A DNA stretch of 64,000 bases from NCBI RefSeq assembly GCF_019649055.1, contig NW_026570239.1, positions 744,001 to 808,000 on the forward strand, in the 5' to 3' direction. The translations under genes were made by a program, and so were the position numbers. Positions 4,486 through 63,483 of the stretch are shown piece after piece. The notes beneath the pieces are model-generated. The model worked only from the letters and a program-made list of their open reading frames with translations. It ran no database searches and had not been told where the DNA came from. The first letter of the stretch is position 1; the number at the start of each line of letters is the position of its first letter. Source of the stretch: Paramacrobiotus metropolitanus. Taxonomy: Eukaryota > Tardigrada > Eutardigrada > Parachela > Macrobiotidae.

Positions 4486-5290
4486 TTAGCCAAACAATAG
4501 TGCGTGGTTGGCTGCCAGTTTGAAAGACTTTTGACAAAATTGACATACGGATTACAAATGGAGAAGGTAGATACAAAATTTCGTTTTTTGTTGGCAATGA
4601 CTATTTCTCCAGCTCTGAGTTTTTTTTAGAGTGACATCCGTTTCTTTCCTGATGTTCGGAAAACGCGACTGATTACAACAATGATTTCCAAACATCCGGA
4701 TGTTTCGCAAAATTTACAAGAATGGCATTCTGCGTAATGAGACAGGCTGATTGTTTTTCTGAGGCAGTAGTTTTGTCTGGAGGATTTAGAGTAGTCATCT
4801 GGTGAGGAAGCAAAACGATAATTCCTGGTTGACTGCCAGTTTGAAAAACTTTCGACAAATTGACATACGGATGACAAATTGACAAGGTGGATACAAAATT
4901 TGGTTTTTGTTGGGAATGACTGTTTTTTCAGTTCTGACAGGTTACTATTTATATTGACAGTGTTTTCTTTCCTGACATTCGGAAACGCGAATAATTACAA
5001 CAGTGATTTCCAAACATCAGGGTGTTTCGCAAAATCTGCAACAATCGCCTTCTTCTTAATGAGACAGGCTGATTTTTCTTTTGAAGCAGTAGTTTTGTCT
5101 GAAGGATTTAGAGTAATCATTTAGAGATGAAGCCAATCGATAATTGCTCATTGGCTGTTAGTTTGAAAAATTTCTGTCAAATTGATATACGGACGACATA
5201 TCGACAAGGTAGATAGAAAATTTCTGCTTTTGTTGGGAATGACTGATTTTTCTTCTGAAGCGGTAGTTATGCCTAACTGATTTAAGGTAT
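4486..5290 (-). repeat. Inverted satellite monomers, first copy
   Basis: The satellite switches orientation at about 4490. Two to three long-type monomers follow on the minus strand and are diverged from those to the left. The region around the switch is an imperfect palindrome of satellite DNA that could form a large hairpin. The block fades into unique sequence near 5290. Confidence 0.85.
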
Positions 5291-6287
5291 TCAGATTCGT
5301 TTTTTGTGCCTAATCGTCTAGCCCACCGATAAAACGCATTTGAATGAATTTTTCTGACTGTGAAGCTTCAAAACATACTATCAAAGTTGGATCCAAAATA
5401 ATGAACCGACGGAATGTACTAATCTAGCTCAAAGTCTTGTAATCTGGAACAGTATATTCTTTTGTGCAATTAAAGCACCGTGAGATCACGAATTGAATAG
5501 CTATTCCTGTTCTTCCTTTTACAAATCCTGGCGGTTAAAACGTTAGACCTACAATTTGTTATGTTGTAGTTCCGATAACGAACACCAGCCGTTACTTGAT
5601 TAACAAGTTTCTTGTAAAACTTGTAGAATTTCTTATACTGTTTTCAGTTCATACGCTTATGATTTGATTTGCGAGATAGAACGTAATGACTACTGAACTC
5701 ACGAAAACTTCCTAACTGGTGCCTTTCTTGAGTAAGAATTGACCGATTTAACTTTTCTTCTGAGCAGAATAGAATCAAATAAAACCTGTGAAGCGGTCGT
5801 CCATTAAGCCTGCGAAATAATTACAAACCCACGCCGAATTCAAAGGCTGCCCGGAGTAGATCCCATCCAAAACTTTTACGTAAAATTTTAAAAACAGTAA
5901 CACTGGGTCACTATATAATTTGAAATTCGGTAACGACCAATATAAAGAGTTTTGCCACCGTCCAAAGCTGCTTCACGAGAAGTGCTCCTAGAGTAACGAA
6001 AATGGGGCTAAATTAGGTTGAGCTGCCGAGCCAACATTTATTTACGTATACTGCAAGAAAATTTATTCAGCATAAATACTCCTCATTGAAATGGGCGTGC
6101 ACAACACATTCATACCGTAGCTACAAAATGATTTCGTGCATGAATCCATTGGCAGCAACCCTAACAGAATACAGAGCAAGAAAACAAAGCTGCCATTGTT
6201 GATTAGCCAGACGTCATTTCCGGGTTCCACATTGTTGTTTATTTAGATATGATTTTCATATTACCCAAACGTTCAACTTTATCCGGC
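5291..6287. other. Gene-free stretch, first copy
   Basis: Unique AT-rich sequence between the satellite and the last exon of the minus-strand F-box gene. No supported coding region or RNA gene is seen. It matches 15656-16707 closely. Confidence 0.6.
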
Positions 6288-8205
6288 TCAGCCGTCCTTC
6301 GAAAAGAACGCCGCTATATCAATCGTCGCTGATCGCCCTCGCATATTCAAGTTGAGTACCCATAACGTCAGCGTGGACAAAGTCGTAAGGTCTAAACTGC
6401 GCAGCTCTTCTTCCGTCCAACTGGACTTCCCACGGTAGCGGTTCGTCAGACGAGGATCACTGCACTGGTTGTTCAGTAGAATCTGGAAAAATTATGATGA
6501 GATTATCATCAATCAACAGTTTGGGTTTAGTGAGCCCCCCCAAATTAAACGAAATCCTACCGTTTTAATGGCGGCACAAATGCCGGATGATTCGTTAACC
6601 TGCGCTTCCTCCGCAATCCACCGTTGCAACCCGGACATATCCAGCGGCGTTCCCATTAACGCCCGCTCCAGTACTTCATACAAATTCATCTGCATCCTCC
6701 AATGTACCGCGGATGATGGTGGCGTCATTGGTCAAAATCTTCTGAATATATTCGCCGCCGATACCACAGAAGCGACAATTACGCCAGACAATGCGCTCCA
6801 CGGCGGCTGCCGCGTCGACACAAGACTGGGCCAATAGTTGTACCTCCGTGCGAAGGCGGATATCACCCAGATCCCAGCGGCAGCGGTTGGCCAACACCTG
6901 TGAAGCAACGGAGGTACACAAGGCTGAATATTGGAAAGAGTTTCTTACGTACGAATATGTATAGGTCCTCTACTCTGTATAATTATGGACTATGCGAAGT
7001 ATTAGTGAATGTACTCGTAAACAGAAAATCTGAAAAATTTTTGATCAGTGAGAAAAAAAAATCTTTCTTTTGGTATGCAATTTAGTGTTTATAAAACATA
7101 ATGCACGTGGAAAACGCGCCTCTGGTTGCAAAATACAACAGATGAGAAAAAACCGTGCCGATTGCTAATTAAATAAAGATTGTAACGCACACCGGCACCG
7201 ACGGATTTACCTGTAGCTTCCGCAAGCGGTTACCGCGCTGTTCGTACACGGCACGTATTAAGCGCAAGCAATCGCCGAGATCCTGAGTCATAGAACCATG
7301 TCTGGCGTCGACAACGACGACCCACTCGGTAGTGACGGTTAAGTACTGAATGATGCACATGCCCACCAGACTTGGCCCATTTTCGCTTTTCCACTTTCAC
7401 TCCACCCCACCTTCACAGTTTGATTCCCAGCCCAGCCCAACTCCGGCTACTCAAATTTTCAGCCCATCTCACCTTTTGGACCTCATCTTCATCCCCATTT
7501 TTTTACAGGCTCAGCGCCGTTAATTTTGCAAGTTTTCCGTATACCATAGAGTTGCCGGGCGAAAAAAATGTTGGTTCCCAAGAAAATATGTTCACTTATT
7601 GTTAAAATCCGCGCGGAGCGCGAAATTTTTGTTTTGGAGCTCGAATGGCGCATTTTTTACATGCTCCTAGCCTGAAAAACAGATGAAAATATAAACATTT
7701 TTTATTTTTATTTGTTTTCTGGATCCCACCCCATCTTTAACAATCCCAGCCCATCTCACCTCATCTGCGGCTCTTTCCCACCTCATCCTCATTTTCACCT
7801 AAAAGGTGAGATGGGCTGGGAAAAATGGGGAAAATTTTCACCTCACCCAAAAGATGGGCCAAGTCTGATGCCCACTGAGTAGGCAGACGTGCCGGGGCTG
7901 TCGAAGTTGAGCGTCAGGTGTTTGCCGTTGTCCTCTCGTTGAATAAGCTCCTTCCACAGCGGACTGACGCGACAGTAGAACGGCCGATCGTTCATGGCCA
8001 AGCAGGACAGAATTTTCCGCATGACTTCTATTGGGAGCGCCGCGGCCATTTGTAAGGTTTCCGGTTCCGGTCCGTTCCGCAAAGACAGGGGATTACTAAC
8101 CGCGGGTTGATTTTTTTTAGGTGGTGTCCAGTGGCCATCGGCCCATTTCCATTTGGTCTGCAGACGCTTGGCCATCTCCGTTTTGGTTTCTTCATTTAGT
8201 CGATC
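6288..8205 (-). pseudogene. F-box family gene, first copy, 5'-truncated and MITE-disrupted
   Basis: Three minus-strand exons are recognisable. The F-box exon runs 8205 to 7211, with WADGHW near its start, an F-box core LPIEVMRKILSCLAMNDR and RVSPLW, and donor CAG|GTAAAT. The CRWDLG exon runs 6897 to 6561, with WRNC motif and donor ACG|GTAGGA. The last exon runs 6482 to 6288, rich in leucine with WTEEELRSLDL. The family's first exon is missing because satellite replaces it at 8417. A 501-base MITE (7367-7867) interrupts the F-box exon, and an extra T near 6688 shifts the third domain. F-box proteins usually link substrates to SCF ubiquitin ligases; that role is inferred from the domain only. 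Confidence 0.75.
7367..7867. mobile_element. hAT-type MITE, 501 bases
   Basis: The element begins CAGACTTGGCCCAT and ends with its exact reverse complement, giving 14-base perfect terminal inverted repeats. It is flanked on both sides by the 8-base direct repeat ATGCCCAC (7359-7366 and 7868-7875). An 8-base target duplication and a CAG start are typical of hAT elements. No transposase is encoded, so it is non-autonomous. The interior is rich in repeated CCCAGCCCATCTCACC-like segments. The duplicate locus at 17760 lacks the element. Confidence 0.92.
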
Positions 8206-8353
8206 CTATTGAGTACAAGGACATCTTTGTTTGTAACTGCCTCCGTTTGATGGAATGGTTCAATAACATTGCGATACCTTGATGGATCGTCTGATATAGA
8301 ACATTGCCCACCCTTTAACCGCAGGAAAGCTTAAAACCAACAAGAAAGAAACG

Positions 8354-8384
8354 CTTCCGGCAGGCAGAAAAAGCCTGCCGGAAG
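8354..8384. other. Perfect 12-base hairpin in intron, first copy
   Basis: CTTCCGGCAGGC and its exact reverse complement GCCTGCCGGAAG are separated by seven bases. The same hairpin occurs at 18256-18287 in the second copy. It lies in the intron upstream of the F-box exon. Function unknown. Confidence 0.7.
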
Positions 8385-8416
8385 TCCGCAAGAAATTTAG
8401 TTGTCGAGATAAGGCG

Positions 8417-11400
8417 CTGTGTTGAATTTGTCCTCTGTATGTCAATTTGTCGAAAGTTTTTCATACTTTCAGCCAACCAGCAATTATTGTTTGACCTTCT
8501 CTCCAGATGACTACCTTGAATCGAATCGTAAGACAAAACTACCGCCTCCAGAAGAAAAATGGGTCATTTCAACAAAAAAACATTTTGTATTCACCTTGCC
8601 AAATTGTCATCCGTATGTCAATTTGTCAAAAGTCATTCAAACTGGCAGCCAACTAGACATGTTCGTCTGGCTTCCTTCTAGATGATTACCCTAAATCCTT
8701 CAGAAAAAACTAGTGATTCGGAAGAAGATTCAGAATGACTCAATAAGCAGAAGGCAATTTTGCAGATTTTGCGAAACATCCGGATGTATGGAAATCATTG
8801 GTGTAATCATTGGTGTTTTCCGAACATCAGTTAAAAACGACTGTCACTCTAAATAGATAATTGCTAGAGCTAGAAGAAAAGTCATTTATTACAAAAAAGG
8901 AAATTTTGTTTCTACCTTGTCAATTTGTCCTCTGTATGTCAATTTGTCGAAAGTTTTTCAAACTTTCAGCCAACCAGCAATTATTGTTTGACCTTCTCTC
9001 CAGATGATTACCTTGAATCGTAAGACAAAACTACCGCCTCCAGAAGAAAAATGGGTCTTTCCAACAAAAAAAATTTTGTATTCACCTTGCCAAATTGTCA
9101 TCCGTATGTCAATTTGTCAAAAGTCATTCAAACTGGCAGCCAACTAGGCATGTTCGTCTGGCTTCCCTTCTAGATGATTACTCTAAATCCTTCCGAAAAA
9201 CTACTGCTTCGGAAGAAAATCAGCTTGTCTCGATAAGCAAAAGCGATTTTTGCAGATCTTGCGAAACATCCGGATGTATGGAAATCATTGGTGTAATCAT
9301 TGGTGTTTTCCGAACATCAGTAAAAAACGACTGTCACTCTAAATAGATAATCGCTAGAGCTAGAAGAAAAGTCATTTATTACAAAAGGAAATTTTGTTTC
9401 TACCTTGTCAATTTGTCCTCCGTATGTCAATTTCTCGAAAGTTTTTCAAACTTTCAGCCAACCAGCAAATATTGTTTTACCTTCTCTCCAGATGATTACC
9501 TTGAATGATAAGACAAAACTACCGCTTTCAGAAGAAAAATGGGTCTTTTCCAACAAAAAAAATTTTGTATTCACCTTGCCTAATTGTCATCCGTATGTCA
9601 ATTTGTCAAAAGTCATTCAAACTGGCAGCCAACTAGACATGTTCGTCTGGCTTCCCTTCTAGATGATTACCCTAAATCCTTCAGAAAAAACTAGTGATTC
9701 GGAAGAAGATTCAGATTGACTCAATAAGCAGAAGGCAATTTTTGCAGATTTTGCGAAACATCCGGATGTATGGAAATCATTGGTGTAATCATTGGTGTTT
9801 TCCGAACATCAGTAAAAAACGACTGTCACTCTAAATAGATAATTGCTAGAGCTAGAAGAAAAGTCATTTATTACAAACAAGGAAATTTTGTTTCTACCTT
9901 GTCAATTTGTCCTCCGTATGTCAATTTGTCGAAAGTTTTTCAAACTTTCAGCCAACCAGCAATTATTGTTTGACCTTCTCTCCAGATGACTACCTTGAAT
10001 CATAAGACAAAACTACCGCCTTTAGAAGAAAAACTGGTCATTTCCAACAAAAAAAAAATTGTGTATTCACCTTGCCAAACTGTCATAAGTATATCAATTT
10101 GTCAAAAGTCATTCAAACTGGCAGCCAACTAGGCATGTTGGTCTGGCTTCCCTTCTAGATGATTACTCTAAATCCTTAAAAAAAAACTACTGCTTCGGGA
10201 GAATAATCAGCTTGTCTCAGTAAGCAGAAGGCGATTATTGCAGATTTTGCGAAACATCCGGATGCTTGGAAATCATTGGTGTTTTCCGAACATCAGTAAA
10301 AAACGACTGTCACTCTAAATAGATAATTGCTAGAGCTAGAAGAAAAGTCATTTATTACAAACAAGGAAATTTTGTTTCTACCTTGTCAATTTGTCCTCCG
10401 TATGTCAATTTGTCGAAAGTTTTTCAAACTTTCAGCCAACCAGCAATTATTGTTTGACCTTCTCTCCAGATTACTACCTTGAATCGTAAGACAAAACTAC
10501 CGCCTCCAGAAGAAAAATGGGTCATTTCCAACAAAAAAAAATTTTGTATTCACCTTGCCAAATTGTCATCCGTATGTCAATTTGTCAAAATCATTCAAAC
10601 TGGCAGCCAACTAGACATGTTCGTCTGGCTTCCCTTCTAGATGATTACCCTAAATCCTTCAGAAAAACTAGTGATTCGGAAGAAGATTCAGATTGACTCA
10701 ATAAGCAGAAGGCAATTTTGCAGATTTTGCGAAACATCCGGATGTATGGAAATCATTGGTGTAATCATTGGTGTTTTCCGAACATCAGTAAAAAACGACT
10801 GTCACTCTAAATAGATAATTGCTAGAGCTAGAAGAAAAGTCATTTATTACAAACAAGGAAATTTTGTTTCTACCTTGTCAATTTGTCCTCCGTATGTCAA
10901 TTTGTCGAAAGTTTTTCAAACTTTCAGCCAACCAGCAATTATTGTTTGACCTTCTCTCCAGATGATTACCTTGAATCATAAGACAAAACTACCGCCTTTA
11001 GAAGAAAAACTGGTCATTTCCAACAAAAAAAAATTGTGTATTCACCTTGCCAAACTGTCATCCGTATATCAATTTGTCAAAAGTCATTCAAACTGGCAGC
11101 CAACTAGGCATGTTGGTCTGGCTTCCCTTCTAGATGATTACTCTAAATCCTTAAAAAAAACTACTGCTTCGGGAGAAAAATCAGCTTGTCTCAGTAAGCA
11201 GAAGGCGATTATTGCAGATTTTGCGAAACATCCGGATGCTTGAAATCATTGGTGTTTTCCGAACATCAGTAAAAAAACGACTGTCACTCTATATAGATAA
11301 TTGCTAGAGCTAGAAGAAAAGTCATTTATTACAAACAAGGAAATTTTGTTTCTACCTTGTCAATTTGTCCTCCGTATGTCAATTTGTCGAAAGTTTTTCA

Positions 11401-14400
11401 AACTTTCAGCCAACCAGCAATTATTGTTTGACCTTCTCTCCAGATTACTACCTTGAATCGTAAGACAAAACTACCGCCTCCAGAAGAAAAATGGGTCATT
11501 TCCAACAAAAAAATTTTGTATTCACCTTGCCAAATTGTCATCCGTATGTCAATTTGTCAAAAGTCATTCAAACTGGCAGCCAACTAGACATGTTCGTCTG
11601 GCTTCCCTTCTAGATGATTACCCTAAATCCTTCAGAAAAAACTAGTGATTCGGAAGAAGATTCAGATTGACTCAATAAGCAGAAGGCAATTTTTGCAGAT
11701 TTTGCGAAACATCCGGATGTATGGAAATCATTGGTGTAATCATTGGTGTTTTCCGAACATCAGTAAAAACGACTGTCACTCTAAATAGATAATTGCTAGA
11801 GCTAGAAGAAAAGTCATTTATTACAAAAAAGAAATTTTGTTTCTACCTTGTCAATTTGTCCTCTGTATGTCAATTTGTCGAAAGTTTTTCAAACTTTCAG
11901 CAATTATTGTTTGACCTTCTCTCCACTTGAATCATAAGACAAAACTACCGCCTGAAGAAAAATGGGTCATTTCTAACAAAAAAATTTTATATTCACCTTG
12001 CCAAATTGTCATCCGTATGTCAATTTGTCAAAAATCATTCAAACTGGCAGCCAACTAGGCATGTTCGTCTGGCTTCCCTTCTAGATGATTACTCTAAATC
12101 CTTCCGAAAAACTACTGCTTCGGAAGAAAAACCAGCTTGTCTCGATAAGCATAAAGGCGATTTTGCAGATCTTGCGAAACATCCGGATGTATGGAAATCA
12201 TTGGTGTAATCATTGGTGTTTTCCGAACATCAGTAAAACGACTGTCACTCTAAATAGATACCTTTTAGAACTAGAAGAGTAATCATTCATAACAAAAAAT
12301 TAAATTTTGTTTCTACCTTGTCAATTTGTCCTCCGTATGTCAATTTGTTAAAAGTCTTACAAACTGGCAGCCAACCAGGAGTTATCGTTTTGTCTCCCAG
12401 ATGATTACCTTGAATCATAAGACAAAACTACCGCCTTCAGAAGAAAAATGGGTCATTTCCAACAAAAAAAATTTTGTATTCACCTTGCCAAATTGTCATC
12501 CGTATATCAATTTGTCAAAATCATTCAAACTGGCAGCCAACTAGGCATGTTCGTCTGGCTTCCCTTCTAGATGATTACCCTAAATCCTTCCGAAAAACTA
12601 GTGATTCGGAAGAAATCAATTGTCTCAATAAGCAGAAGGCGATTTTTGCAGATTTTGCGAAACATCCGGATGTATGGAAATCATTGGTGTAATCATTGGT
12701 GTTTTCCGAACATCAGTAAAAAACGACTGTCACTCTAAGATATTGCTTAGAGCTAGAAGAGTAATCATTCATAACAAAAAAATAAACTTTTGTCTACCTT
12801 GTCAATTTGTCCTCCGTATGTCAATTTGTTAAAAGTTTTACAAACTGGCAGCCAACCAGGAGTTATCGTTTGACCTTGTCTCCAGATGATTACCTTGAAT
12901 CATAAGACAAAACTACCGCCTTTAGAAGAAAAACTGGGTCATTTCCAACAAAAAAAATTTGTATTCACCTTGCCACTGTCATCCGTAAATCAATTTGTCA
13001 AAATCATTCAAACTGGCAGCCAACTAGGCATGTTGGTCTGGCTTCCCTTCTAGATGATTACTCTAAATCCTTAAAAAACTACTGCTTCGGAAGAATAATC
13101 AGCTTGTCCCAATAAGCAAAAGGCGATTTTGCAGATTTTGAAACATCCGGATGCTTGGAAATCATTGGTGTGTATCATTGTTTTCCGAACATCCAGTAAA
13201 AACGACTGTCACTCTAAGTTGATACCTGTTAGAACTAGAAAGTAATCATTCATAACAAAAATGAAATTTTGTTTCTACCTTGTCAATTTGTCCTCCGTAT
13301 GTCAATTTGTCGAATGTTTTTCAAACTTTCAGCCAACCAGCAATTATTGTTTGACCTTCTCTCCAGATGATTAGGTTGAATCATAAGACAAAACTACCGC
13401 CTTCGGACATAAAATGGGTCATTTCCAACAAAAAAAAATTTTGTATTCACCTTGCCAAATTGTCATCCGTATGTCAATTTGTCAAAAGTCATTCAAACTG
13501 GCAGCCAACTAGGCATGTTCGTCTGGCTTCATTTCTAGATGATTACTCTAAATCCTTCCGAAAAACTACTGCTTCGGAAGAAAAACCAGCTTGTCTCAAT
13601 AAGCAAAGGCAATTTTTGCAGATTTTGCAGAAACATCCGGATGTATGGAAATCATTGGTGTAATCATTGGTGTTTTCCGAACATCAGTAAAGAAACGACT
13701 GTCACTCTAAGTTGATACCTGTTAGAGCTAGAAGAGTAATCATTCATAACAAAAAATGAAACTTTTGTCTACCATGTCAATTTGTCCTCCGTATGTCAAT
13801 TTGTCAAAGTCTTACAAACTGGCATCCAACCAGGAGTTATCGTTTGACCTTCTCTCAGATGATACTTGAATCATAAGACAAAACTACCGCCTTCAGAAGA
13901 AAAAATGGGTCATTTCCAACAAAAAATTTTATTCACCTTGCCAAACTGTCATCCGTATATCAATTTGTCAAAAATCATTCAAACTGGCAGCCAACTAGGC
14001 ATGTTCGTCTGGCTTCCTTTCTAGATGATTACTCTAAATCCTTCCGAAAAAACTACTGCTTCGGAAGAAAAATCAGCTTGACTCAATAAGCAAAAGGCGA
14101 TTTTGCAGATTTTGCGAAACATCCGGATGTTTGAAATCATTGGTGTGTCATTGTTGTTTTCCGAACATCAGTAAAAAACGACTGTCACTCTAAGTAGATA
14201 CCTGTTAGAACTAGAAGAGTAATCATTCATAACAAAAAATGAAACTTTTGTCTACCTTGTCAATTTGTCCTCCGTATGTCAATTTGTGAAAGTTTTACAA
14301 ACTGGCAGCCAACCAGGAGTTATCGTTTGACCCTCTCTCCAGATGATTTACTTGAATGATAAGACAAATCTACCGCCTTCTGAAGAAAAAATGGGTCATT

Positions 14401-14879
14401 TCAACAAAAAAATTTGTATTCACCTTGCCAAACTGTCATCCGTATATCAATTTGTCAAAATCATTCAAACTGGCAGCCAACTAGGCATTTTCGTCTGGCT
14501 CATACTGTTCAAAATTTTTCAACTGGAGCCAACCAGGTATTATCGTTTGACTTTTAGATGATTACTCTTATCTTTCAGGCAAAACTACCGCTTAACAGAA
14601 AAAATCAGCCTGTATCGATAAGCAGAAGGCGATTGCAGAATTTGTGAAACTTCCGGATGTTTGAAATTATTGTTGTAATCATCCATTTTCCGAACATCAG
14701 AAAAAAACAACTCTCACTCTAAATAGACCTGTCAGAGCCAGAAAATAGTCATTCCCAACAAAAGACAAAATTTTGTATAACTCTTGTCAGTTTGTCCTCC
14801 GTATGTCAATTTGTCAAAAGTCTTTCAATCTGGCAGCAAACCTGGCATTATGGTTTGACCTTCTCTAGATGATTAGCCA
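8417..14879 (+). repeat. Satellite array, second copy
   Basis: About twelve to thirteen units of the same long-plus-short monomer dimer as at 1-4485. Units in 8417-12000 are very like those of the first array. Units from about 12000 onward carry many short deletions, often in homopolymers, and long monomers near 14480-14870 are diverged. The excess of short indels could be sequence error rather than biology. Repeated short open frames are shadows of the repeat. Confidence 0.9.
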
Positions 14880-15655
14880 AACAATAGTGCGTGGTTGGCT
14901 GCCAGTTTGAAAGACTTTTGACAAAATTGACATGGATTACAAATGAGAAGGTAGATACAAAATTTCGTTTTTTTGTTGGCAATGACTATTTCTCCAGCTC
15001 TGAGTTTTTTTTAGAGTGACATCCGTTTCTTTCCTGATGTTCGGAAACGCGACTGATTACAACAATGATTTCCAAACATCCGGATGTTTCTGCAAAATTT
15101 ACAAGAATGGCATTCTGCGTAATGAGACAGGCTGATTGTTTTTCTGAGGCAGTAGTTTTGTCTGGAGATTTAGAGTAGTCATCTGAGAAGCAAAACGATA
15201 ATTCCTGGTTGACTGCCAGTTTGAAAACTTTGACAAATTGACATACGGATGACAAATTGACAAGGTGGATACAAAATTTGGTTTTGTTGGGAATGACTGT
15301 TTTTTCAGTTCTGACAGGTTACTATTTATATTGACAGTGTTTTCTTTCCTGACATTCGGAAACGCGAATAATTACAACAGTGATTTCCAAACATCAGGTG
15401 TTTCGCAAAATCTGCAACAATCGCCTTCTTCTTAATGAGACAGGCTGATTTTTCTTTGAAGCAGTAGTTTTGTCTGAAGGATTTAGAGTAATCATTTAGA
15501 GATGAAGCCAATCGATAATTGCTCATTGGCTGTTAGTTTGAAAAATCTGTCAAATTGATATACGGACGACATATCGACAAGGTAGATAGAAAATTTCTGC
15601 TTTTGTTGGGAATGACTGATTTTTTCTTCTGAAGCGGTAGTTGCCTAACTGATTT
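14880..15655 (-). repeat. Inverted satellite monomers, second copy
   Basis: Reverse-oriented long monomers that match 4486-5290 with small deletions. They end where the unique sequence shared with the first copy begins. Confidence 0.85.
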
Positions 15656-16707
15656 AAGGTATTCAGATTCGTTTTTGTGCCTAATCGTCTAGCCCACCGA
15701 TAAAACGCATTTGAATGAATTTTTCTGACTGTGAAGCTTCAAAACATACTATCAAAGTTGGATCCAAAATAATGAACCGACGGAATGTACTAATCTAGCT
15801 CAAAGTCTTGTAATCTGGAACAGTATATTCTTTTGTGCAATTAAAGCACCGTGAGATCACGAATTGAATAGCTATTCCTGTTCTTCCTTTTACAAATCCT
15901 GGCGGTTAAAACGTTAGACCTACAATTTGTTATGTTGTAGTTCCGATAACGAACACCAGCCGTTGTTACTTGATTAACAAGTTTCTTGTAAAACTTGTAG
16001 AATTTCTTATACTGTTTTCAGTTCATACGCTTATGATTTGATTTATGAGATAGAACGTAATGACTACTGAACTCACGAAAACTTCCTAACTGGTGCCTTT
16101 CTTGAGTAAGAATTGACCGATTTAACTTTTCTTCTGAGCAGAATAGAATCAAATAAAACCTGTGAAGGTCGTCCATTAAGCCTGCGAAATAATTACAAAC
16201 CCACGCCGAATTCAAAGGCTGCCGGAGTAGATCCCATCCAAAACTTTTACGTAAATTTTAAAAAACAGTAACACTGGGTCACTATATAATTTGAAATTCG
16301 GTAACGAGAGGATTTGTTAGAGAGATGCCAATATATCCCCTTTGAATTTTGAGTTTTGCCCTACCGTCCACTTAAAGCCAGCCAAAGCTGCTTCACGAGA
16401 AGTGCTCCTAGAGTAACGAAAATGGGGCTAAATTAGGTTGAGCTGCCGAGCCAACATTTATTTACGTATACTGCAAGAAAATTTATTCAGCATAAATACT
16501 CCTCATTGAAATGGGCGTGCACAACACATTCATACCGTAGCTACAAAATGATTTCGTGCATGAATCCATTGGCAGCAACCCTAACAGAATACAGAGCAAG
16601 AAAACAAAGCTGCCATTGTTGATTAGCCAGACGTCATTTCCGGGTTCCACATTGTTGTTTATTTAGATATGATTTTCATATTACCCAAACGTTCAACTTT
16701 ATCCGGC
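15656..16707. other. Gene-free stretch, second copy
   Basis: Close match of 5291-6287. It differs most at about 16310-16375, where some 60-70 bases are replaced or added compared with the first copy. No coding region is supported. Confidence 0.6.
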
Positions 16708-49110: not shown

Positions 49111-49617
49111 ATGTACGCTACAATATAGATACATGTATATTCTTATATCCAGTAAGTACTTTACGTACGTGTTCAGAGTATATACTAGAAGAAGGGACCA
49201 TTCCGTGGAGGAAGGGTGTCCGAGAAAATAGCGGACCGTGTCCGGGAAAATAGCGGAGAGTGCCTGTTGTCCGTAACTCTGGCGTAGTGTACAGCTACAG
49301 TGGCACTTGCGCCTATATGTTTTGTATGTGTACTTATATACTCGTATTTTACAGACGAGAGCACTACCGTCTTCTCTGATTTTATTAATAATAACTAACA
49401 ATATTATGAACATCGGAAGTATGTATTACACTTAAGACAACCAGTAAAACAAATTATACAACACTTACACAGTGTAAGATCTAGCAAGCATATAATAAAT
49501 ACATAATACACCCCTTCACCACTAACACCATCGCGACTATCGCCGCCCATGCCGACCACCACCACCGCCGCCGCCGTCATGCCGATAAACACTACCACCG
49601 CCGCTGCGGCCGGATCA
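49111..49617. other. Gene-free stretch
   Basis: Nothing supported. A short ACCACCACCGCCGCCGCC-type run lies near 49555-49610, just downstream of the minus-strand gene's stop. Confidence 0.4.
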
Positions 49618-51189: not shown

Positions 51190-52790
51190 ACAGCAATACA
51201 GCCACAGTAAATGAACGGCATCCGCACACCGTACGCCGGCTGCACTCGGAGCGTCCACGGTGGTTTTGACAGAAACCACGCCGTGCACGGCATGCCCACA
51301 CCACACACCCGCCCCGCGACGTCCACGGCGGTGTTTGCAGTATCATGGCCGTACACGGCATCCCACAAAACTCCAGCTGCTGCACCTACAACGTCCACCC
51401 AAAGTGGACGGCATCCGCACACCGTGCGCCGGCTGCACACAGAGCGGCCACGGTAGTGTTGAAAGTAGACACGCCGTGCACGGCGTGCCCACACCACACT
51501 CCCGCTCCGCGACGTCCACGGTGGTGTTAATATCAGACACGCCGCGCACGGCATGCCCACACCACACTCCCGCCCCGCGACGTCCACGTTGGTGTTGATA
51601 TCAGACACGCCGTGCACGGCATGCCCACACCACACTCCCGCTCCGCGACGTCCACGGTGGTGTTAATATCAGACACGCCGCGCACGGCATGCCCACACCA
51701 CACTCCCGCCCCGCGACGTCCACGGTGGTGTTGATATCAGACACGCCGTGCACGGCATGCCCACACCACACTCCCGCTCCGCGACGTACACGGTGGTGTT
51801 AATATTAGACACGCCGTGCACGGCATGCCCACACCACACTCCCGCCCCGCGACGTCCACGGCGGCCTTCGTAATAGCCACACCGTGCACGACATCCTCAA
51901 ACACCGGCTGCTGCACCCGCAACGTCCACCCAAAGTGGACGGCATCCGCACACCGTGCGCCGGCTGCACACAGAGCGGCCATGGTAATGTTAATAGCAGG
52001 CACACCGTGCACGGCATGCCCACACCACACACCTGCCCCGCTCGGTCCACGGCGGTGGTCGCAGTAGCACCACCGTGCAAGGCATCCCCACACCACACCG
52101 GCTGCTGCACCCGCAACGTCCACCCAAAGTGGACGGCATCCGCACACCGTGCGCCGGCTGCACACAGAGCGGCCACGGTAATGTTAATAGCAGGCACGCC
52201 GTGCACGGCATACCCACACCACACCCGCTGCTGCACCCGCAACGTTCACACAACGTTGACGGCATTCGCACACCGTACGCTGGCTGCACGCAGAGCGGCC
52301 ACGGTAGTGAAAGTAGACACGCCGTGCACGGCATGCCCACACCACACACCCTCCCCACGACGTCCACGGTGGTGTTAATATCAGACACGCCGTGCACGGC
52401 ATGCCCACACCACACACCCGCCCCGCGACGTCCACGGTAGTGTTGAAAGTAGACACGCCGTGCACGGCATGCCCACACCACACACCCTCCCCGCGACGTC
52501 CACGGTAGTGTTGAAAGTAGACACGCCGTGCACGGCATGCCCACACCACACCCGCCCCGCGACGTCCACGGCGGCTTTTGCAATAGCCACACGCTGGCTG
52601 CACAGGCGACGTCCACGGTTGTGTTAACAGTAGACACGCCGTGCACGGCATGCCCACACCACACCCGCCCCGCGACATCCACGGTGGTGTTGACAGTATA
52701 CATGCCGTGCGCGGCATGCCATCACCTCACACACCCACACCACACGTCGGCTACAACAGCGAAATCCACACACCGTGAACGGCATCTGCA
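51190..52790. repeat. GC-rich minisatellite, 68-base unit with a 12-base palindrome
   Basis: From 51511 to 51851 successive GACGTCCACG words start 68 bases apart (51511, 51579, 51647, 51715, 51783, 51851). Elsewhere units vary in length. Most units carry GCCGTGCACGGC, a perfect 12-base palindrome, followed by ATGCCCACACCACA. Longer variants insert a GCACACCGTGCGCCGGCTGC segment. Because 68 is not a multiple of three, long open frames appear on both strands; these are repeat shadows. It is CpG-rich, unlike its surroundings. Confidence 0.92.
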
Positions 52791-55057: not shown

Positions 55058-57234
55058 GAAAATAATACCGGAGAAACTTGTAAAAGGAATGGATCCTTTT
55101 GCAAACGACGGATTCAACTTTGACATGTATGAGTCGCCGCCATCTTCCGTTGCCGCACCGGAGGATTTGGATTTTCCAACCGGTGGAATGGATTGGGATA
55201 CAATAGATCCAGATGTCCTCGCGGCTCAAGTTACCCAGAACAGCGAAGCGGTGCCAAACGCAGAACTCGTCCCCATAATCGTGCAACCGCTGCCCATTGC
55301 CCAGAGTCAGGAGATAGTGCCCATGGAAATTGATCAAGATGGCGGTGCGACCTCGACTGCAGAGCAGCCAAATGTCGAGGAAGGAGATCTGGTTACGGAA
55401 GATCTCAACGGGTATGCACCGATCGTCGACCAGACAACGCCAATTTTGATAGCTCCAGCAGCAGTTCCCAAGTATGACTGGAGCAACGTGTTCGAGTTGC
55501 ATAGGGATGGTAGAGCGGCCAACCGACAATGGGGCCAGTCGAAAGTTTATTGGAGGACGCATTTTCAAAACTTACCGGCTCAATTTGACGGTCCTACGTC
55601 GATTCTCGTTCTGCCGGACGCGTTGGAAGAAATTTTGCGTTTATGCACCGAAGATTTCCATAAAGATGACAAAGTCGGTTTGGAGATTAGCAGTTCCGTG
55701 TTCCAATCTGAAAAACGCGCTATTTGCGTCCCTATCCGAAAACTGGAAAATTTACGCGTTGATGATATAATGCAGATTGTTTCATTGGTGAATTCCGGAG
55801 ATAAGCTTTGCATTGACGAAAGTTTTTTTGTTCGCGTTACACATGTGGCGCTTCCAAGAGGTGGCGCAAAGCCACGCAAGCATATCCATTCTTCTTTTGA
55901 TCGGAAAAAATGGAGTAAGTCCATTGTGCAGGTGAAAGTCAACAAGAATTTGTGCCTGCCCGCCTGCCTTATCCTTGGCAAATACCACAACGCTGTCCAC
56001 AAAGATAAGAAAGCTTGGAAAGTTCTAACTGACAGTCGTTGCAAACGCTTGCAAAATGAAGCGGAAAAATTAGTGAAAGATGCTGGTCTTACGGTCGGAG
56101 ATAAGTTTGGGATTGCCGATATCCCGCGGTTTCATGCCACAGCACTGAAGAACTTCCAGGTTAAGGTGGTTTCAGCTTCCACCTTGAACCAAGTGTTTGC
56201 CCGCCATCCTGAAGAGCGTGGCAATCGTAAGATAATCTATATCTTACATGAGAACGACCATTTCGACCTTATTACGAAACCGTCAGGATTTCACAGACGC
56301 GGGTACTACTGTCACGATTGTGACCTCCCACACGACCACAAAGAGCGTCACAGGTGCCAAAACATTTGCAATGGCCGTTATCGCAGTAAAGATGAATGTG
56401 CTGAAGAGGAGAAGGTTTTTTGTAACAACTGTGGCCGCACCTTTAACAACCGGAAATGTCTTGAACTACATGAAAAGCCTCGAAAAAACCAGCTGACCTT
56501 TTGCGAACAGCTTTTTGTTTGTGGGTCCTGTAACAAGTTCGTTAGTCTACTGCGACGACCTGGCCAGAAGCATGTATGCGATGAGATGTATTGCGGAATC
56601 TGTAAAGAGTGGGTGCTGCAATCGCACCGCTGCTTCATGAAGCCAATCGAAAGTCGAGTATATCCATCGACACCGCAGCACATATATTTCGATTACGAAA
56701 CTTACCAGGATGAGGATGGCGTGCATAGACCGTGCTATGTTGTTGCCCAGTATGTGGACGGGCAGGAGTTTCGGTTCCCACCTGACGGGACACCAATGGA
56801 AGGTTACGATGTGCAAAAAGAATTTGGCCAGTGGGTTTACTCTGAAAAGCACCGGGGTTTCACACTCATTGCACATAATCTGCGTGGCTATGACGGACAT
56901 TTCTTACTATCATACCTTCTGGAGAACAACTTAAAAGGTGTGGAAGTAATACGGCGGGGAAGTCAGCTTCTGGACATCAGATACCCGGCGTTGGATATGA
57001 ACGCTCGTGATACGCTGAATTTCGTGATGACAAAGTTGTCGGCTTTTCCGAAGGCTGTTGGTTTGGATGAGTGCGAAGAAAAGGGAACGTTTCCCCATGG
57101 GCTCAGTCATCCTGAAAATTTCGACAAAGTCGTTCCGTTTCCGAATACGGACAAGTACATGTATGAAGGGCTCAACAGGAAGTCCCGAAGAGAATTTGAA
57201 CAGTGGCACGCCGAAGAAAAACAACGAAAAAACG
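55058..57234 (+). CDS. Protein-primed family B DNA polymerase, exonuclease half
   Basis: One long exon (open from 55058, with an internal ATG at 55089) ending at AACG|GTAAGG. The N-terminal part is acidic. Cys/His-rich segments between about 56300 and 56640 (for example CHDCDLPHDH and CNNCGRTF) look like zinc-binding fingers, as in Polinton/adintovirus polymerases. The proofreading exonuclease motif I is FDYETY (near 56690) and motif II is AHNLRGYDGHFL (near 56870). Motif III follows in the next exon. The product would copy a linear element, primed by a protein. No stop or shift is seen within this exon. Confidence 0.88.
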
Positions 57235-57309
57235 GTAAGGTTTTAGAAAATATCTAATTTCTTTTACAAAACAAAACGTTCAAATCCTTTAATTTTTTTA
57301 AATTCTTAG

Positions 57310-59126
57310 GTTTGTTCGATTTTCGGCAAGAAATGGCATCGTATTGCTCTCAGGATGTCACCATATTAAGGAAATGCGCACTAAGATTCCGTCAGAACTT
57401 CCTTAATATGACAAAAATCGACCCCTTTGCCAGTGTTACGATAGCATCTGCCTGCAAGAAATATTATCAAACCCAACTTCTGAAGCCAAATGAAATCGCT
57501 GTAATTTCCGGGAACGGCTATCAGGCAAACCGGAGAACAAGTATGGAAGCTACGCAATGGTTGGAATGGGAAAAGATGGATCACCCCGGCATAGAGCATG
57601 GTCGTACTGGAAAAGAAGCTAGGGTTGGTCGATATTTTGTGGATGGCCACGATAAACCAGCAAAAACGGTTTACGAATATAACGGCTGTGTTCATCATGG
57701 ACATCCGGAATGCACAGAAGAGGAAGATCGTGCTCCATATTCAAACAAAACTATGCGGGAAGTTTATGAAGAGTGGAAAGAGAAGGAAGCATACCTGAAA
57801 AGCCGTAAGCTCAAAGTCGAAGTCAAGTGGTCCTGTGAATGGTTGAAAGAGAGAAAGGATCCGGACATTGCGCAGTTTATCCTCAATCAGAATTTGCGTG
57901 ATCCCCTGCAACCAAGAAATGCCTTTAAGGGCGGTCGCACCAACGCTTCGCGACTATACAAAGTGGTCGAAGAAGGAGAAAAGATACTGCATTACGATAT
58001 CGTTTCGTTGTATCCTTTTGTGAACAAGACGGCAGAGTATCCTATTGGCCATCCTGATATCATCGTGTCTAATTTTAAACCAGTCACGGAGTACTTTGGG
58101 TTTGTTCACTGTAAAGTTCTTCCACCTGAACGACTGCGCTATCCTGTGCTGCCAACGACGATAAACGGCAAGTTGATGTTCGCTTTATGCGGCGAGTGCG
58201 CCAAGCAGTGCAGGAATGATTACTGTCCACACACAGACCAGGAACGATGTATTGATGGCGTCTGGTGTACCCCAGAACTCAACTACGCGATAGCAAAAGG
58301 ATACAAAGTGGTTGAAACGTATGAAGTATGGCATTGGCCGGAAAGACGATCCGGATTATTCGAAGACTACGTGAACATGTTTTTGAAGGAAAAGATTGAA
58401 GCGAGCGGCTTCCCCGTCGACTGTAGTACAGAAGAACAGAAGCGCGCCTACATCGAAGAAGTTTTTAAGCGTGATGGAATCCGTCTAGATTACCACAAAG
58501 TTGAGGATAACCCTGCCCGCCGTGCCGTAGCAAAGCTTATGCTCAATTCTTTCTGGGGGAAATTTGGACAAAGAGATAATCTACATCAAACGCGTTTTAT
58601 CTATTCACCGAAGGAATTTCACGATTTATTGCGATCCGAAGCCTTTGACATCTTCAGCATACACGCTGTGACACCGAACTGTATGATGGTCACCTACGCA
58701 AAGCGGGATGAATATAACGAAGGCAGTGACGGTGTGAATGTCGCCATCGCTGCTTTTACGACCAGCCATGCTCGCTTAAAGCTTCTTGAGACTATGAATC
58801 GTCTTGGTGAGCGGTTGTTATATTACGACACGGATTCCGTTATCTTCGTTCATAAAGACGGTGATTGGCTCCCCGAGTCAGGATGTGGTCTTGGAAAATG
58901 GACGAATGAGCTTAAGCCCGGGGAATCTCATATTGTCCGATTCGTTTCTTGCGGTCCCAAAGTTTACAGCTACGAGACCGACACAGGTCGCGTTGAATTG
59001 AAAGTGAAGGGGCTTACCCAGAATGGATACACGGAAGACATCTTGGACGAAGAAATGGTCCGAACCGGTCGCGAGTTGAACTTCGACGCATTGGAGACAC
59101 TGCTCAAAGACCGAAATTCAATGAAG
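57310..59126 (+). CDS. Protein-primed family B DNA polymerase, polymerase half
   Basis: Joined in phase to the preceding exon by a 75-base intron. The exonuclease motif III region is YCSQDV (near 57345). Polymerase motif A is YDIVSLYPF (near 57994), motif B is KLMLNSFWGKFGQ (near 58535), and motif C is YYDTDSV (near 58822), with the catalytic aspartates in place. The order and the CxxC-rich insert between A and B fit Polinton/adintovirus enzymes. The exon ends at ATGAAG|GTTAAT, a weak but usable donor. All catalytic residues appear intact, so it may still be functional or recently integrated. Confidence 0.9.
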
Positions 59127-59206
59127 GTTAATACAAGTTTATTGCACGTTCTTGTTATGTGGTTTAATACTGCAGAGGCATTATTTCACTAATTTTGTTT
59201 TTGCAG

Positions 59207-59573: not shown

Positions 59574-60008
59574 ATGAAAGTTTTCCTCGAAGATGCTACG
59601 ACAAAGTGGTTCAATTTTAAAGACGATCGTTATGTTGGATTTCATAAGAAGACGCAAGCTGTCACCTTTTGCCGCATATTTTCGACAGAAGGAGACCAAC
59701 GCTATGTATATACTGCTATGGAATTATCCAGTCATATTCTTCGTCAGATTTTCCAGGCCATTGCCAATCATACTATCCAGGACCTTTTGGATACTGCCAT
59801 TTTGAAGAACAGACCGACGCATCTTATTCTTAAAGGCGACGGTAATGACGACGACGAACTTGATATTTCCTTTAAAGCTGGAAAATTTTGTTGTATCTTT
59901 TTTAAGCAAAAGAAAAATAGAACGACCGTAAGATTTTCGCATAAGAAATTTCATGATATGTTTGCCGCTCTGGAATCGTTTTGCTGTCCTTCTCCTGATG
60001 CTGTGTAA
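59574..60008 (+). CDS. Unknown small protein A, 144 residues, paralogue of the protein at 61040
   Basis: A single exon with ATG at 59574 and a promoter-like motif upstream. It seems to have two similar halves, each with strands followed by a helix: VGFHKKTQAVTFCRIF then YTAMELSSHILRQIFQAI, and DISFKAGKFCCIFF then TTVRFSHKKFHDMFAAL. The protein at 61040-61480 follows the same plan. The strand-strand-helix pattern faintly recalls PC4-type single-strand DNA-binding coactivators, but the match is too weak to assign. Together with the TBP-like gene nearby, a transcription or DNA-binding role is possible. Confidence 0.65.
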   Translation: MKVFLEDATTKWFNFKDDRYVGFHKKTQAVTFCRIFSTEGDQRYVYTAMELSSHILRQIFQAIANHTIQDLLDTAILKNRPTHLILKGDGNDDDELDISFKAGKFCCIFFKQKKNRTTVRFSHKKFHDMFAALESFCCPSPDAV

Positions 60009-60337: not shown

Positions 60338-60435
60338 TTTATTGCACTAAGGAGCGGTCACGCAAGTAACCAGGTATCACAACTGCTTGCCACTCGCGCG
60401 TTTATTCAGTGTAATATTTGACAGGTATTGTTAAA

Positions 60436-60918
60436 ATGGCTTCAGAAAGTGATTTGACACCCACGTTTACTGAGCTGCGAAATGATTATCAAGATTATAC
60501 TTTAATTTACAATTTAAACATGCAGAATAACGATAAGCGCGTCGCATCATTTTTTGGCCATTTTTCGAGTTTTCCTGGTCTGAAACCAGCAGAGTTAGCG
60601 GCAGCAGGTTTTTATTGTGTGGGTATGGGGCGTATCTACTGTTATGCCTGCGGTCTGGGTTTGGAAGACTTACTTCCCTTTGAGGACATCAATGTTCACC
60701 ATGCACTTAATCGTCCACTTTGCGATCATTTGCGTACAGTTGTTGACACACAGTTCATCAACGAAGTATTGGAAGCAGCAGATTCTTGCAGTGAATGGAC
60801 ACTTAAACGCTGGAATCGTAAAGTCTTCAGTTTTGGCGGGTATTGCCGTTGTAACATGGAGGAAGGGCCAACGGGTGACGTTATCGATGGTCCGTGTTTT
60901 ATGCATCCTCCTCGCTAA
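60436..60918 (+). CDS. BIR-domain (IAP-like) protein, 160 residues
   Basis: ATG at 60436; an in-frame extension upstream has no ATG. Residues about 37-105 form a BIR domain: an arginine-led start (RVASFFGHFSSFP), AGFYCVG, the zinc ligands CYAC, and a His then Cys in HALNRPLC. The C-terminal third is not recognised and contains a second Cys cluster (GYCRCNM). No RING is present. BIR proteins of viruses and hosts usually restrain apoptosis by binding caspases or related factors; here that is inferred from the fold only. It sits in the virus-like cassette with its own promoter-like motif. Confidence 0.85.
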   Translation: MASESDLTPTFTELRNDYQDYTLIYNLNMQNNDKRVASFFGHFSSFPGLKPAELAAAGFYCVGMGRIYCYACGLGLEDLLPFEDINVHHALNRPLCDHLRTVVDTQFINEVLEAADSCSEWTLKRWNRKVFSFGGYCRCNMEEGPTGDVIDGPCFMHPPR

Positions 60919-61039: not shown

Positions 61040-61480
61040 ATGGATAATTTTCCTCAATTAGAATTCGTTTCGCAGGCGGGTACGGTTAAATGTTACAGAG
61101 TCACTAAAGTCTGTTTTGTATGGTTTGATACAGATGCAAAGACCGCCCTTTTTGCACGCTGCACCTCACCAACTCCGGAAGCTTACTCTGAGGCGGTGAA
61201 TCGCGGTTTCGTTTTGGATTTACCAGCCATCAATAATCTCCTCATCTTGCTTAACAATGGAGAAATCCGCAAATTACTCGATAAAGCCTCCGTAGAAGAC
61301 CGAAATACGCATACGGTAATCCGAAACGCCAAAGATGATGTCATTGATGTGAAGCTGGCATACCACTGCATGTTTGGTCGAATGGTTTCATTTAACCACG
61401 AAGGCCGCTCAGTAACTTTTGCATATCGGAATTTTCGGAGCGTGTGCAACCTTCTCTCTCAGTTGATTTCAAATAATTAG
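61040..61480 (+). CDS. Unknown small protein B, 146 residues, paralogue of the protein at 59574
   Basis: Single exon from ATG 61040. It has the same two-half plan as protein A: VCFVWFDTDAKTALFARC then a helix-like LDLPAINNLLILLNNG, and FGRMVSFNHEGRSVTFAY then RNFRSVCNLLSQLI. Between the halves both proteins have a KLLDKA/DLLDTA helix, a run of N/D/R/T, and a short strand. They look like products of an old duplication around the BIR gene. Possible PC4-like fold, weakly supported. Not found elsewhere in the window. Confidence 0.65.
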   Translation: MDNFPQLEFVSQAGTVKCYRVTKVCFVWFDTDAKTALFARCTSPTPEAYSEAVNRGFVLDLPAINNLLILLNNGEIRKLLDKASVEDRNTHTVIRNAKDDVIDVKLAYHCMFGRMVSFNHEGRSVTFAYRNFRSVCNLLSQLISNN

Positions 61481-61855: not shown

Positions 61856-63160
61856 ATGATTCACCACATTATTACTGTCCTAACGTTCGACTGCCAGTTT
61901 GATTTGAGACATATTGCTCGATCAACAGCTTCTCGTCCTGTTAAAGATTTCAATGCAGTTATTCTTACATCCAAAGACGGAAGTTACATTCAGGTTTTTA
62001 GATCTGGAAAAGCGATCATTAACGGTGGATCAAATGAACTGGAAGTGCGTAATCTTGTCAAACGTTATCGGGCACGTTTAACGCATTTGGGTTACTCTGC
62101 TAACATCTTGGATAAGAAGACCGCAAATATTATGGCTACACATCAGCAAGAATTTCCGATAAATCTGTTTAAGTTTGCATCCGCAAACAAACTATGGTAT
62201 GAACCGGAGCGAATTGATAATGTTCAATTGCGTTACGATGATCTTGGAACCACAGTGAAAGTTTTCAGTACCGGCAAATGTGTGATCATGGGCGCCAAGA
62301 CCGAAAAAGCTGTGGAAGAATGCATTGCCCGTCTCAAGGCTACATTACCAGCGCATCCGCCTCCTCCTGGAGCTGAAATGCCTCCACCACCACCACGTAG
62401 AAATCGGAAATCGTTGAACACGCATGAATGGGAGAAGTGGTTTGTTGATTTCGATAAGGAGATTTTAGAATCTGAACCGGTCGAAACAACTAAGGCAGTC
62501 AATCATGCCAAAGCAAAGACAGGGAAACGTAAGAGACAAGCATCAGAACCAGATAGCTCGAGACCGGTTAAGCAGAAGACGGCACCTCCAAGCGCACAAA
62601 GTACAACTCAACCAGACCGAACGGATTTAAAGCCAACCGAAACTGAGCCATCCCAACTAATAAAAGTGGAAGACAACAGTGATTTGGATAAATGGATTAC
62701 AATTTTAGACGATGAAATTTCGTCTGCGAAAGACTGCTTAAACGAACCGGGTAAGACTGAGGTGAATACCACCACTGAAGATTACCTGGCGTGGGTGGAC
62801 GAAATTGTTCTTAGCCCAATGTGTACTGCAAAAGATGAGGATTTATTTGATTGGTTTGAAAGAGTCCAGGACACTGTAGCCGATACCAAAGAAACGCCGC
62901 AGACAGACGACCCTCTTGCCTGGGTAGACCAAATCGTTCTAAGCCCGCCCTGCGTTGGTGAAAGTGAAGACTTATTTGAATGGTTTGAAAAGGTCCAAGA
63001 CACTGCAGCTGCTACGAAGGAGGAGCTGCAAACAGACGATTCTCTTAGTTCTGTGGACCAAATCGTTCAGAGTCCGGCTTGCACAGACAACATGGAAATG
63101 GATTTGTTTGATTGGTTTGATAAAACTCCTACATTTTTAGAATTATACTGTCATTTTTAG
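61856..63160 (+). CDS. TBP-like protein with acidic/aromatic repeat tail, 434 residues
   Basis: Residues about 10-165 form a two-repeat TATA-binding-protein core. Repeat 1 has CQFDLRHIARS, KDFNAVIL and FRSGKAIINGGSNE; repeat 2 has PINLFKFA, WYEPERIDNV and FSTGKCVIMGAKTEKA, matching the FxSGKxxxTGAK signature of cellular TBP in both halves. Of the four DNA-kinking phenylalanines of TBP, three positions keep Phe (F32, F48, F137) and one is Ile (I120). A proline-rich linker (about 166-182) and a basic patch (GKRKRQ) follow. The C-terminus has three repeats of 43 residues (WVDEIVLSP to DLFDWFE), rich in acid and aromatic residues like activation domains. Predicted role: promoter recognition for the element's own genes (inference). 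Confidence 0.85.
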   Translation: MIHHIITVLTFDCQFDLRHIARSTASRPVKDFNAVILTSKDGSYIQVFRSGKAIINGGSNELEVRNLVKRYRARLTHLGYSANILDKKTANIMATHQQEFPINLFKFASANKLWYEPERIDNVQLRYDDLGTTVKVFSTGKCVIMGAKTEKAVEECIARLKATLPAHPPPPGAEMPPPPPRRNRKSLNTHEWEKWFVDFDKEILESEPVETTKAVNHAKAKTGKRKRQASEPDSSRPVKQKTAPPSAQSTTQPDRTDLKPTETEPSQLIKVEDNSDLDKWITILDDEISSAKDCLNEPGKTEVNTTTEDYLAWVDEIVLSPMCTAKDEDLFDWFERVQDTVADTKETPQTDDPLAWVDQIVLSPPCVGESEDLFEWFEKVQDTAAATKEELQTDDSLSSVDQIVQSPACTDNMEMDLFDWFDKTPTFLELYCHF

Positions 63161-63338
63161 ATCATTGGCGCCGTTGTTTTCGGAGATTTTCTTAACCGTT
63201 TTCAAGACATTAATTCTTCGTTCATTGTATAGCATTACCATGCAAACAGTTGTTAAAATTGTATTTTCTTTCTAGAAAATTTTGTACTTTCTTTGGGTTG
63301 GATTTATTAGATAAAAAACTCTAAAACTGTTCCAAAAA

Positions 63339-63415
63339 AAGAGGGCCATGCCCCAAAACTGTGGCGGGTTTAACTTGTCTTCGGCCAGGTTGAACTCGTT
63401 TCTGTTTTGGTCATT
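63339..63415 (+). promoter_or_regulatory. Intergenic block, copy 3, with hairpin
   Basis: GAGGGCCATGCCCCAAAACTG then TTAACTTGTCTTCGGCCAGG, nearly the same as the block at 61606. The three-base loop differs (CAT against GTT) while the GGGC/GCCC stem is kept. It lies between the TBP-like and ATPase genes. No clear copy of the GTGACAGAAGTC motif follows it; GCGAGGAAAACGTAATGAAT near 63427 may be a degenerate one. Confidence 0.55.
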
Positions 63416-63483
63416 TGCTCATTTAGCGAGGAAAACGTAATGAATATTTTCGAATAGTCGATAAAATAAACGGAAGCGAAGAA

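Follow-up and report, generated by a model that had tools for sequence, protein, structure and literature searches.

A TATA-binding protein family in Polinton/adintovirus-like elements of the tardigrade Paramacrobiotus metropolitanus, fused in one lineage to a repeat-bearing tail

Few eukaryotic proteins are as conserved as the TATA-binding protein (TBP). White spot syndrome virus, an invertebrate DNA virus with a large genome, is a nimavirus and not a Polinton. It has a TBP-like gene, as do the elements described here, and we compare the two by description, as far as the accessible part of the source goes (PMC6751192). Giant and other large dsDNA viruses likewise encode TBP-like proteins, again compared here by description only from the available portion of the paper (PMC7221094). 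In Kaposi's sarcoma-associated herpesvirus (KSHV), ORF24 is a viral TBP mimic that binds promoters and Pol II (available text of PMC7498053 and PMC12529657). As described there, it resembles the tardigrade protein in that a single viral protein joins a TBP-like domain to an additional part that recruits, a role that in the tardigrade protein would be a presumed one. The two differ in layout, since ORF24 has 752 aa and its Pol II-binding part is N-terminal, whereas the extra part of our protein is C-terminal; moreover ORF24, according to the same excerpts, is without the acidic residues that contact TFIIB, whereas the family described here keeps the position of yeast E188.

With Polintons (Mavericks) and adintoviruses, as covered by the accessible part of PMC11071296, the element reported here shares PolB, a chromodomain integrase, an adenain-like protease, capsid-like ORFs, terminal repeats and a 6-bp duplication; the same source defines adintoviruses by an integrase with a C-terminal chromodomain. 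Maverick is among the superfamilies named in the available part of a paper on tardigrade transposons (PMC11071193). The words TATA and TBP are absent from the main text of PMC11071296 and PMC11071308, and no such TBP appears in the text of these two papers or of PMC10120064, PMC12721341, PMC12220804 and PMC10328495. In the literature searched, outside the scope of which most subscription papers lay, we found no report of a TBP in Polintons, adintoviruses or Polinton-like viruses. Both terms occur in PMC10132985, on mirusviruses, and in PMC7786948.

The stretch that we analysed, referred to as the window, is 64,000 nucleotides long and corresponds to C19:744001-808000 of the 170-Mb P. metropolitanus assembly (533 contigs). 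The original prediction placed a TBP gene within a Polinton/adintovirus-like element, and the gene does lie inside one. The Polinton-type insertion around it spans 23.0 kb (C19:793187-816198) and has at each end a terminal inverted repeat of about 140 bases, starting AGAAGAAGGG; the left repeat occupies window positions 49187-49326, and its right partner, C19:816062-816198, lies beyond the window. Immediately outside is a 6-bp target-site duplication, TATACT, with its left copy at 49181-49186 and its right copy, also beyond the window, at C19:816199-816204. Inverted repeats at the ends and a target duplication of 6 bp count among the features that define Polinton/Maverick elements. Two more copies of the gene are likewise found between terminal repeats: one at C10, 96% identical, with the repeats 24.5 kb apart, and one at C27, 99% identical over residues 1-382, with the repeats 24.0 kb apart. 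In the C27 copy the end of the TBP is in another frame (from about residue 382) and one terminal repeat is only 76% identical. The duplication was read at C19, and at C10 and C27 the terminal repeats only; a lone terminal repeat match was seen at C55.

The main ORFs of the element run rightward, those in the window being on the forward strand. PolB comes first, in two ORFs (55089-57257 and 57312-59192; Pfam DNA_pol_B_2, E 1.5e-7 and 7.3e-34), followed by a small conserved ORF (59574-60008), a BIR (inhibitor-of-apoptosis) domain protein (60418-60918; Pfam BIR, E 4.7e-7), a second small conserved ORF (61040-61480), the TBP gene (61856-63160) and an ATPase-like ORF with the P-loop-like start GPTMSGKS (63484 to the window's end at 64000, and on to C19:808113). 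After these come a short ORF, a 383-aa ORF, an integrase with a chromodomain, penton-like, small capsid-like, hexon-like and adenain-like ORFs, and three small ORFs. By its DNA_pol_B_2 match the PolB is of the putatively protein-primed type, and the retrovirus-like integrase matches rve at E 1.3e-13 and Chromo at E 1.4e-9, the latter at residues 318-354 of 354. Peptidase_C5 was matched by the adenain-like protease in five of six relatives (best E 8.6e-5), the window's own copy being under the cut-off at E 0.04. We name the penton-like, hexon-like and ATPase-like ORFs by place, size, motif and conservation; profiles gave no confirmation of the ATPase-like ORF, and the penton- and hexon-like ORFs, which in size, order and conservation would suit penton and double jelly-roll major capsid proteins, had no match in Pfam, PHROGs or PDB profiles. 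Relatives bear the NCBI label F54H12.2-like. Together, PolB, the integrase with its chromodomain, the adenain-like protease, the terminal repeats and the 6-bp duplication support the assignment of the element as Polinton/adintovirus-like.

Several further features of the region were recorded along the way. The small ORFs on either side of BIR are paralogues by hhalign (E 3.6e-6); reading had raised the suspicion that they encode PC4, and profile comparison returned nothing for that identity. An OTU domain had no Pfam match in the first PolB ORF. The PolB ORFs are parted by window positions 57235-57309, which have GTAAG...TTAG ends and may be a spliceosomal intron. Left of PolB and inside the element, positions 51467-52571 consist of GC-rich tandem repeats, a 68-base unit among others, and over positions 1-16000 the base-composition values come back about every 10 kb, which may reflect a duplicated unit.

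The TBP gene is open throughout and encodes 434 aa. Two TBP repeats had been read from its sequence, with a match to TBP profiles proposed as a check, and both are borne out: the Pfam TBP profile (PF00352) matches in two stretches at E 1.4e-22, scoring 79.7 bits against a cut-off of 22.9, and TBPs from the PDB align inside residues 2-164, residues 3-156 pairing with positions 68-226 of yeast TBP (chain 1rm1_A, 240 aa). By profile, then, the core (residues 1-162, window 61856-62341) is supported as a TBP. Each lobe has the signature FxxGKxxxxG that had been pointed out, as FRSGKAIING and FSTGKCVIMG. The kinking positions fall by alignment on F32, F48, I120 and F137, in agreement with the earlier reading of three phenylalanines kept and one changed to isoleucine; we take these to be yeast F99, F116, F190 and F207, on a numbering placed by alignment. 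A protein search restricted by length returned a single protein, P0001 of P. metropolitanus; it is 67% identical to the window's TBP, and its first 173 residues are those of the TBP ORF at L039 (C147).

The gene is widespread in this genome. A TBP profile search of the contigs, in which 150 of 493 candidates were scored and all 150 listed matches lay above the cut-off, was merged with a protein search (97 of 269 candidates scored) to give at least 182 loci, one of which is the host gene at C4:406 kb (L001). All 18 further TBP loci that we inspected, 10 kb each and picked for diversity rather than randomly, contain genes of the window's element type, and 17 contain two or more; at L023 the ATPase-like gene stands alone beside the TBP. 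Gene order varies among the lineages, for which we use labels of our own. Type A, that of the window, has PolB, BIR, TBP and ATPase on one strand; in type B the TBP is convergent with PolB, mostly with a partner ORF adjoining it and a PC4-like gene nearby; in type C it is paired with integrase and ATPase, and in type D it occurs with BIR and PC4. For PolB, 79 loci were scored of 507 candidates, and among the matches listed a TBP lies within 15 kb of 60 of these, within 10 kb of 46 and within 5 kb of 30, where by chance about 4% of random points would have a TBP within 20 kb. Around the remaining 19 listed PolB loci the TBP list, which covers the part of the candidates that was scored, has no entry out to 20 kb.

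Other TBP-bearing elements encode a PC4/SUB1-like coactivator, at L003:2520-3233 (PF02229, E 1.9e-8) and L007:2663-3172; apart from the best match, at C41, eight of nine PC4 matches are at most 1.6 kb from a listed TBP. In several elements an ORF that is conserved with the TBP overlaps its start (L003:1740-2252 and L007:1679-2227), with unconvincing Pfam results. At L009:3578-7771 the integrase and penton-like ORFs have a few bases in common, as do the hexon-like and adenain-like ORFs, a sign of splicing or of unusual translation.

Behind the core of the window's TBP, the predicted proline linker and basic patch were found, the latter as the two patches RRNRK and GKRKR. They are followed by three repeat units at 43-residue spacing (starts at residues 313, 356 and 399) in a region of residues 303-432, window 62762-63151. 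The three repeats, too, had been foreseen, and self-comparison recovers them: at a lag of 43 the tail matches itself at 22 of 30 positions in its best stretch, where 200 shuffles (lags 20-80) reached 11 at most. Units 1 and 2 are identical at 27 of 43 residues and units 2 and 3 at 16 residues, the third being degenerate (SSVDQIVQSP). The same fusion had been sought in other elements, and here the outcome was divided, in that the TBP itself is general and the fused tail, among the copies examined, is restricted to the window's lineage (type A). Because the TBP genes of other lineages mostly encode about 170-200 aa from a conserved Met, without a fused tail in the copies examined, we regard the TBP as the general feature and the fusion as the special one. 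In type A relatives the tail ends in a different repeat, TLTQCxKLVAQ, and by eye the basic patches and acidic Trp/Phe motifs recur. The tail evolves faster than the core, with dN/dS of 0.13, 0.35 and 0.65 in three tail pairs. In type A only, the basic patches would carry the protein into the nucleus, and the acidic and aromatic repeats would recruit a coactivator, so that promoter choice and recruitment would reside in one protein. By analogy, the role of the viral TBP may be like that of KSHV ORF24, and in type A the tail would recruit in addition.

Relatives of the family were sought with a profile of 11 tardigrade TBP copies, which returned 228 proteins at E ≤1e-5. In the list of the best 120, 46 rank higher than durian P0047, which is the first cellular TBP with an organism name, comprising two from P. 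metropolitanus and 44 others of 112-250 aa, mostly metagenomic. In a 72-row tree, 34 relatives are interleaved with 12 tardigrade copies, and 25 cellular rows, host TBP included, fall on one side (99/97, the bootstrap not having settled). Two rows labelled cellular, P0100 and P0102, sit there on very long branches, P0102 among type A, and both were left out of a 50-row tree rooted on eight archaeal TBPs. In the latter, one clade (100/99) unites 31 viral rows, 9 from the tardigrade and 22 metagenomic, beside 11 eukaryotic TBPs including the host's; the eukaryotic group is weak (38/0), and the program warned of long branches meeting at the viral/eukaryotic join, where the attachment is uncertain. 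A recent capture from the tardigrade is unsupported, the host TBP grouping with eukaryotic TBPs in both trees. All five IMG/VR scans, with two viral TBP profiles and with the hexon, ATPase and cellular TBP profiles, gave no relative. A hexon-like profile search returned 59 proteins, all from P. metropolitanus or metagenomic, bar one filed under an archaeal metagenome bin.

Like cellular TBP, of which the host copy is our example, the viral proteins have two lobes and mostly keep the kinking phenylalanines and the stirrup P-E. They differ in forming a separate clade and at the positions of T124 and T215, and the window's core differs from the host copy at most sites. We counted residues in 65 viral rows (23 tardigrade, including near-copies, and 42 metagenomic) and seven cellular rows, without the short P0025, P0044 and P0045 and without tardigrade stretches of fewer than 136 residues; the C27 core is identical to the window's and was counted once. 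Positions are given by yeast numbers that we presume to correspond, placed by alignment. Phe at F99 and Asn at N159 are invariant in the viral rows (65/65 each), and Phe occupies F207 in 63 of 64 and F190 in 63, with Ile in two (window and C10). At F116 there are 52 Tyr and 13 Phe, and at N69 53 of 63 rows have Asn and 10 His. The DNA-facing positions of T124 and T215 are both Thr in the seven cellular rows; in the viral rows the former is Asn in 64 and Ser in one, and the latter is Leu in 58 and another residue in five, with Thr in none of 63. This shared replacement of Thr is consistent with one origin and with a changed preference for DNA. Of the acidic positions, E188 is Glu in 61 of 65 rows and E186 in 35 of 65. 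Because it has further changes, to His, Arg, Ile and Asp at the positions of N69, L189, F190 and P191, the window's protein is, as judged from the alignment, among the less typical members, having lost more DNA-contact positions than most of its relatives.

The viral TBP family is under purifying selection. Of 13 pairs tried, 12 gave a computable ratio, and dN/dS is below 1 in 11 of these; among core or whole-protein pairs it is 0.04-0.29 in eight of nine. The pair L016/L018 has a ratio of 1.33 on two synonymous changes, and window/L021 is saturated.

In contrast to the at least 182 merged TBP loci, a TFIIB profile search of the whole genome, in which 8 of 8 candidates were scored, matched at three places, and at this profile's sensitivity we saw no viral TFIIB family accompanying the elements. 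Host TFIIB is likely the partner of the viral TBP because no such family was seen, and the kept E188 position fits docking to host TFIIB, whereas the variable E186 position does not. The elements differ in this from giant and large dsDNA viruses, since the accessible part of PMC7221094 describes a TFIIB-like gene in almost all large viruses with a TBP-like protein, poxviruses excepted; its authors consider viral TBPs unlikely to bind host TFIIB. As for promoters, the signal is weak: a TATA-like motif is found upstream of 5 of 28 type A gene starts, and TATAWA occurs within 120 nt upstream of 5 of 18 type B-D starts, counting near-copies, where shuffles gave 2.1 and 24 of 500 were as high as the observed count. 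A conserved non-coding block of type A between the TBP and the ATPase-like ORF (window 63330-63440) has the look of an inverted repeat and no TATA box, and is a candidate promoter or operator.

We consider it probable, on what the sequences show us of conservation and gene context, that the viral TBP family in Polinton/adintovirus-like elements specifies viral promoters and relies on the host for TFIIB and Pol II. The protein would be made while the element replicates, would bind and bend the element's own promoters with a preference unlike that of host TBP, and would dock host TFIIB by way of the stirrup Glu that most members keep (yeast E188), so bringing host Pol II to viral genes. A fuller version strikes us as plausible and short of probable: animal Polinton/adintovirus-like viruses with a genome of about 23 kb would have their own ancient TBP lineage, whose DNA face, re-tuned by Asn and mostly Leu in place of two base-contacting Thr, reads a non-host core promoter and still uses host TFIIB and Pol II, with promoter choice and coactivator recruitment fused in the window's lineage.

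Other explanations draw on some of the same observations. A doubtful one is that the viral TBP is a decoy for host shut-off, competing for TFIIB, TFIIA or TAFs and lowering host transcription without marking viral promoters. Retention of E188 in 61 of 65 rows alongside changed DNA-facing residues would suit such a decoy, as would the loss of several DNA-contact residues in the window's protein, but the positions of F99 and N159 are unchanged in 65 of 65 and that of F190 in 63 of 65, as expected if DNA is still bound. TFIIIB guides some retrotransposons, and the viral TBP might similarly act in replication, packaging or integration, bending DNA at the element ends or guiding the integrase to host promoters. 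In the window's element the gene does have the ATPase-like and integrase ORFs close by, and the target duplication is AT-rich (TATACT); site preference, however, cannot be judged from the one duplication read, and the lineages vary in gene order, without a constant link to the integrase, so we hold this role unlikely.

Decay is evident in places: many copies are broken, several matches contain stops, and the C27 copy leaves frame near residue 382, as would be seen if a TBP captured once were now a functionless passenger. The dN/dS of 0.04-0.29 in eight of nine core or whole-protein pairs and the ORFs that stay intact in diverged lineages as well as in metagenomic relatives nevertheless make that very improbable. 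To the idea that the gene is a host TBP paralogue merely adjoining an element fragment, for which the general TBP match alone might speak, we give next to no credence. The gene lies between terminal repeats at three sites, and the host has a TBP gene of its own elsewhere, at C4:406 kb, which falls among eukaryotic TBPs; the repeats, the duplication and the tree placement rule out a host gene beside a fragment.

That related elements also carry a TBP suggests that a lineage of small animal viruses comes with a promoter-recognition factor of its own. To our knowledge there is little work on Polinton transcription, and the viral TBP would offer a testable entry point to it, as well as a marker gene for this virus group in tardigrades and metagenomes. 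A separate, fast-evolving viral clade is a natural experiment on the residues that fix promoter choice and partner binding in TBP. If the reading that we prefer is true, a virus need not be a giant virus, a nimavirus or a herpesvirus to come with a basal transcription factor of its own, since small animal DNA viruses can do so too.
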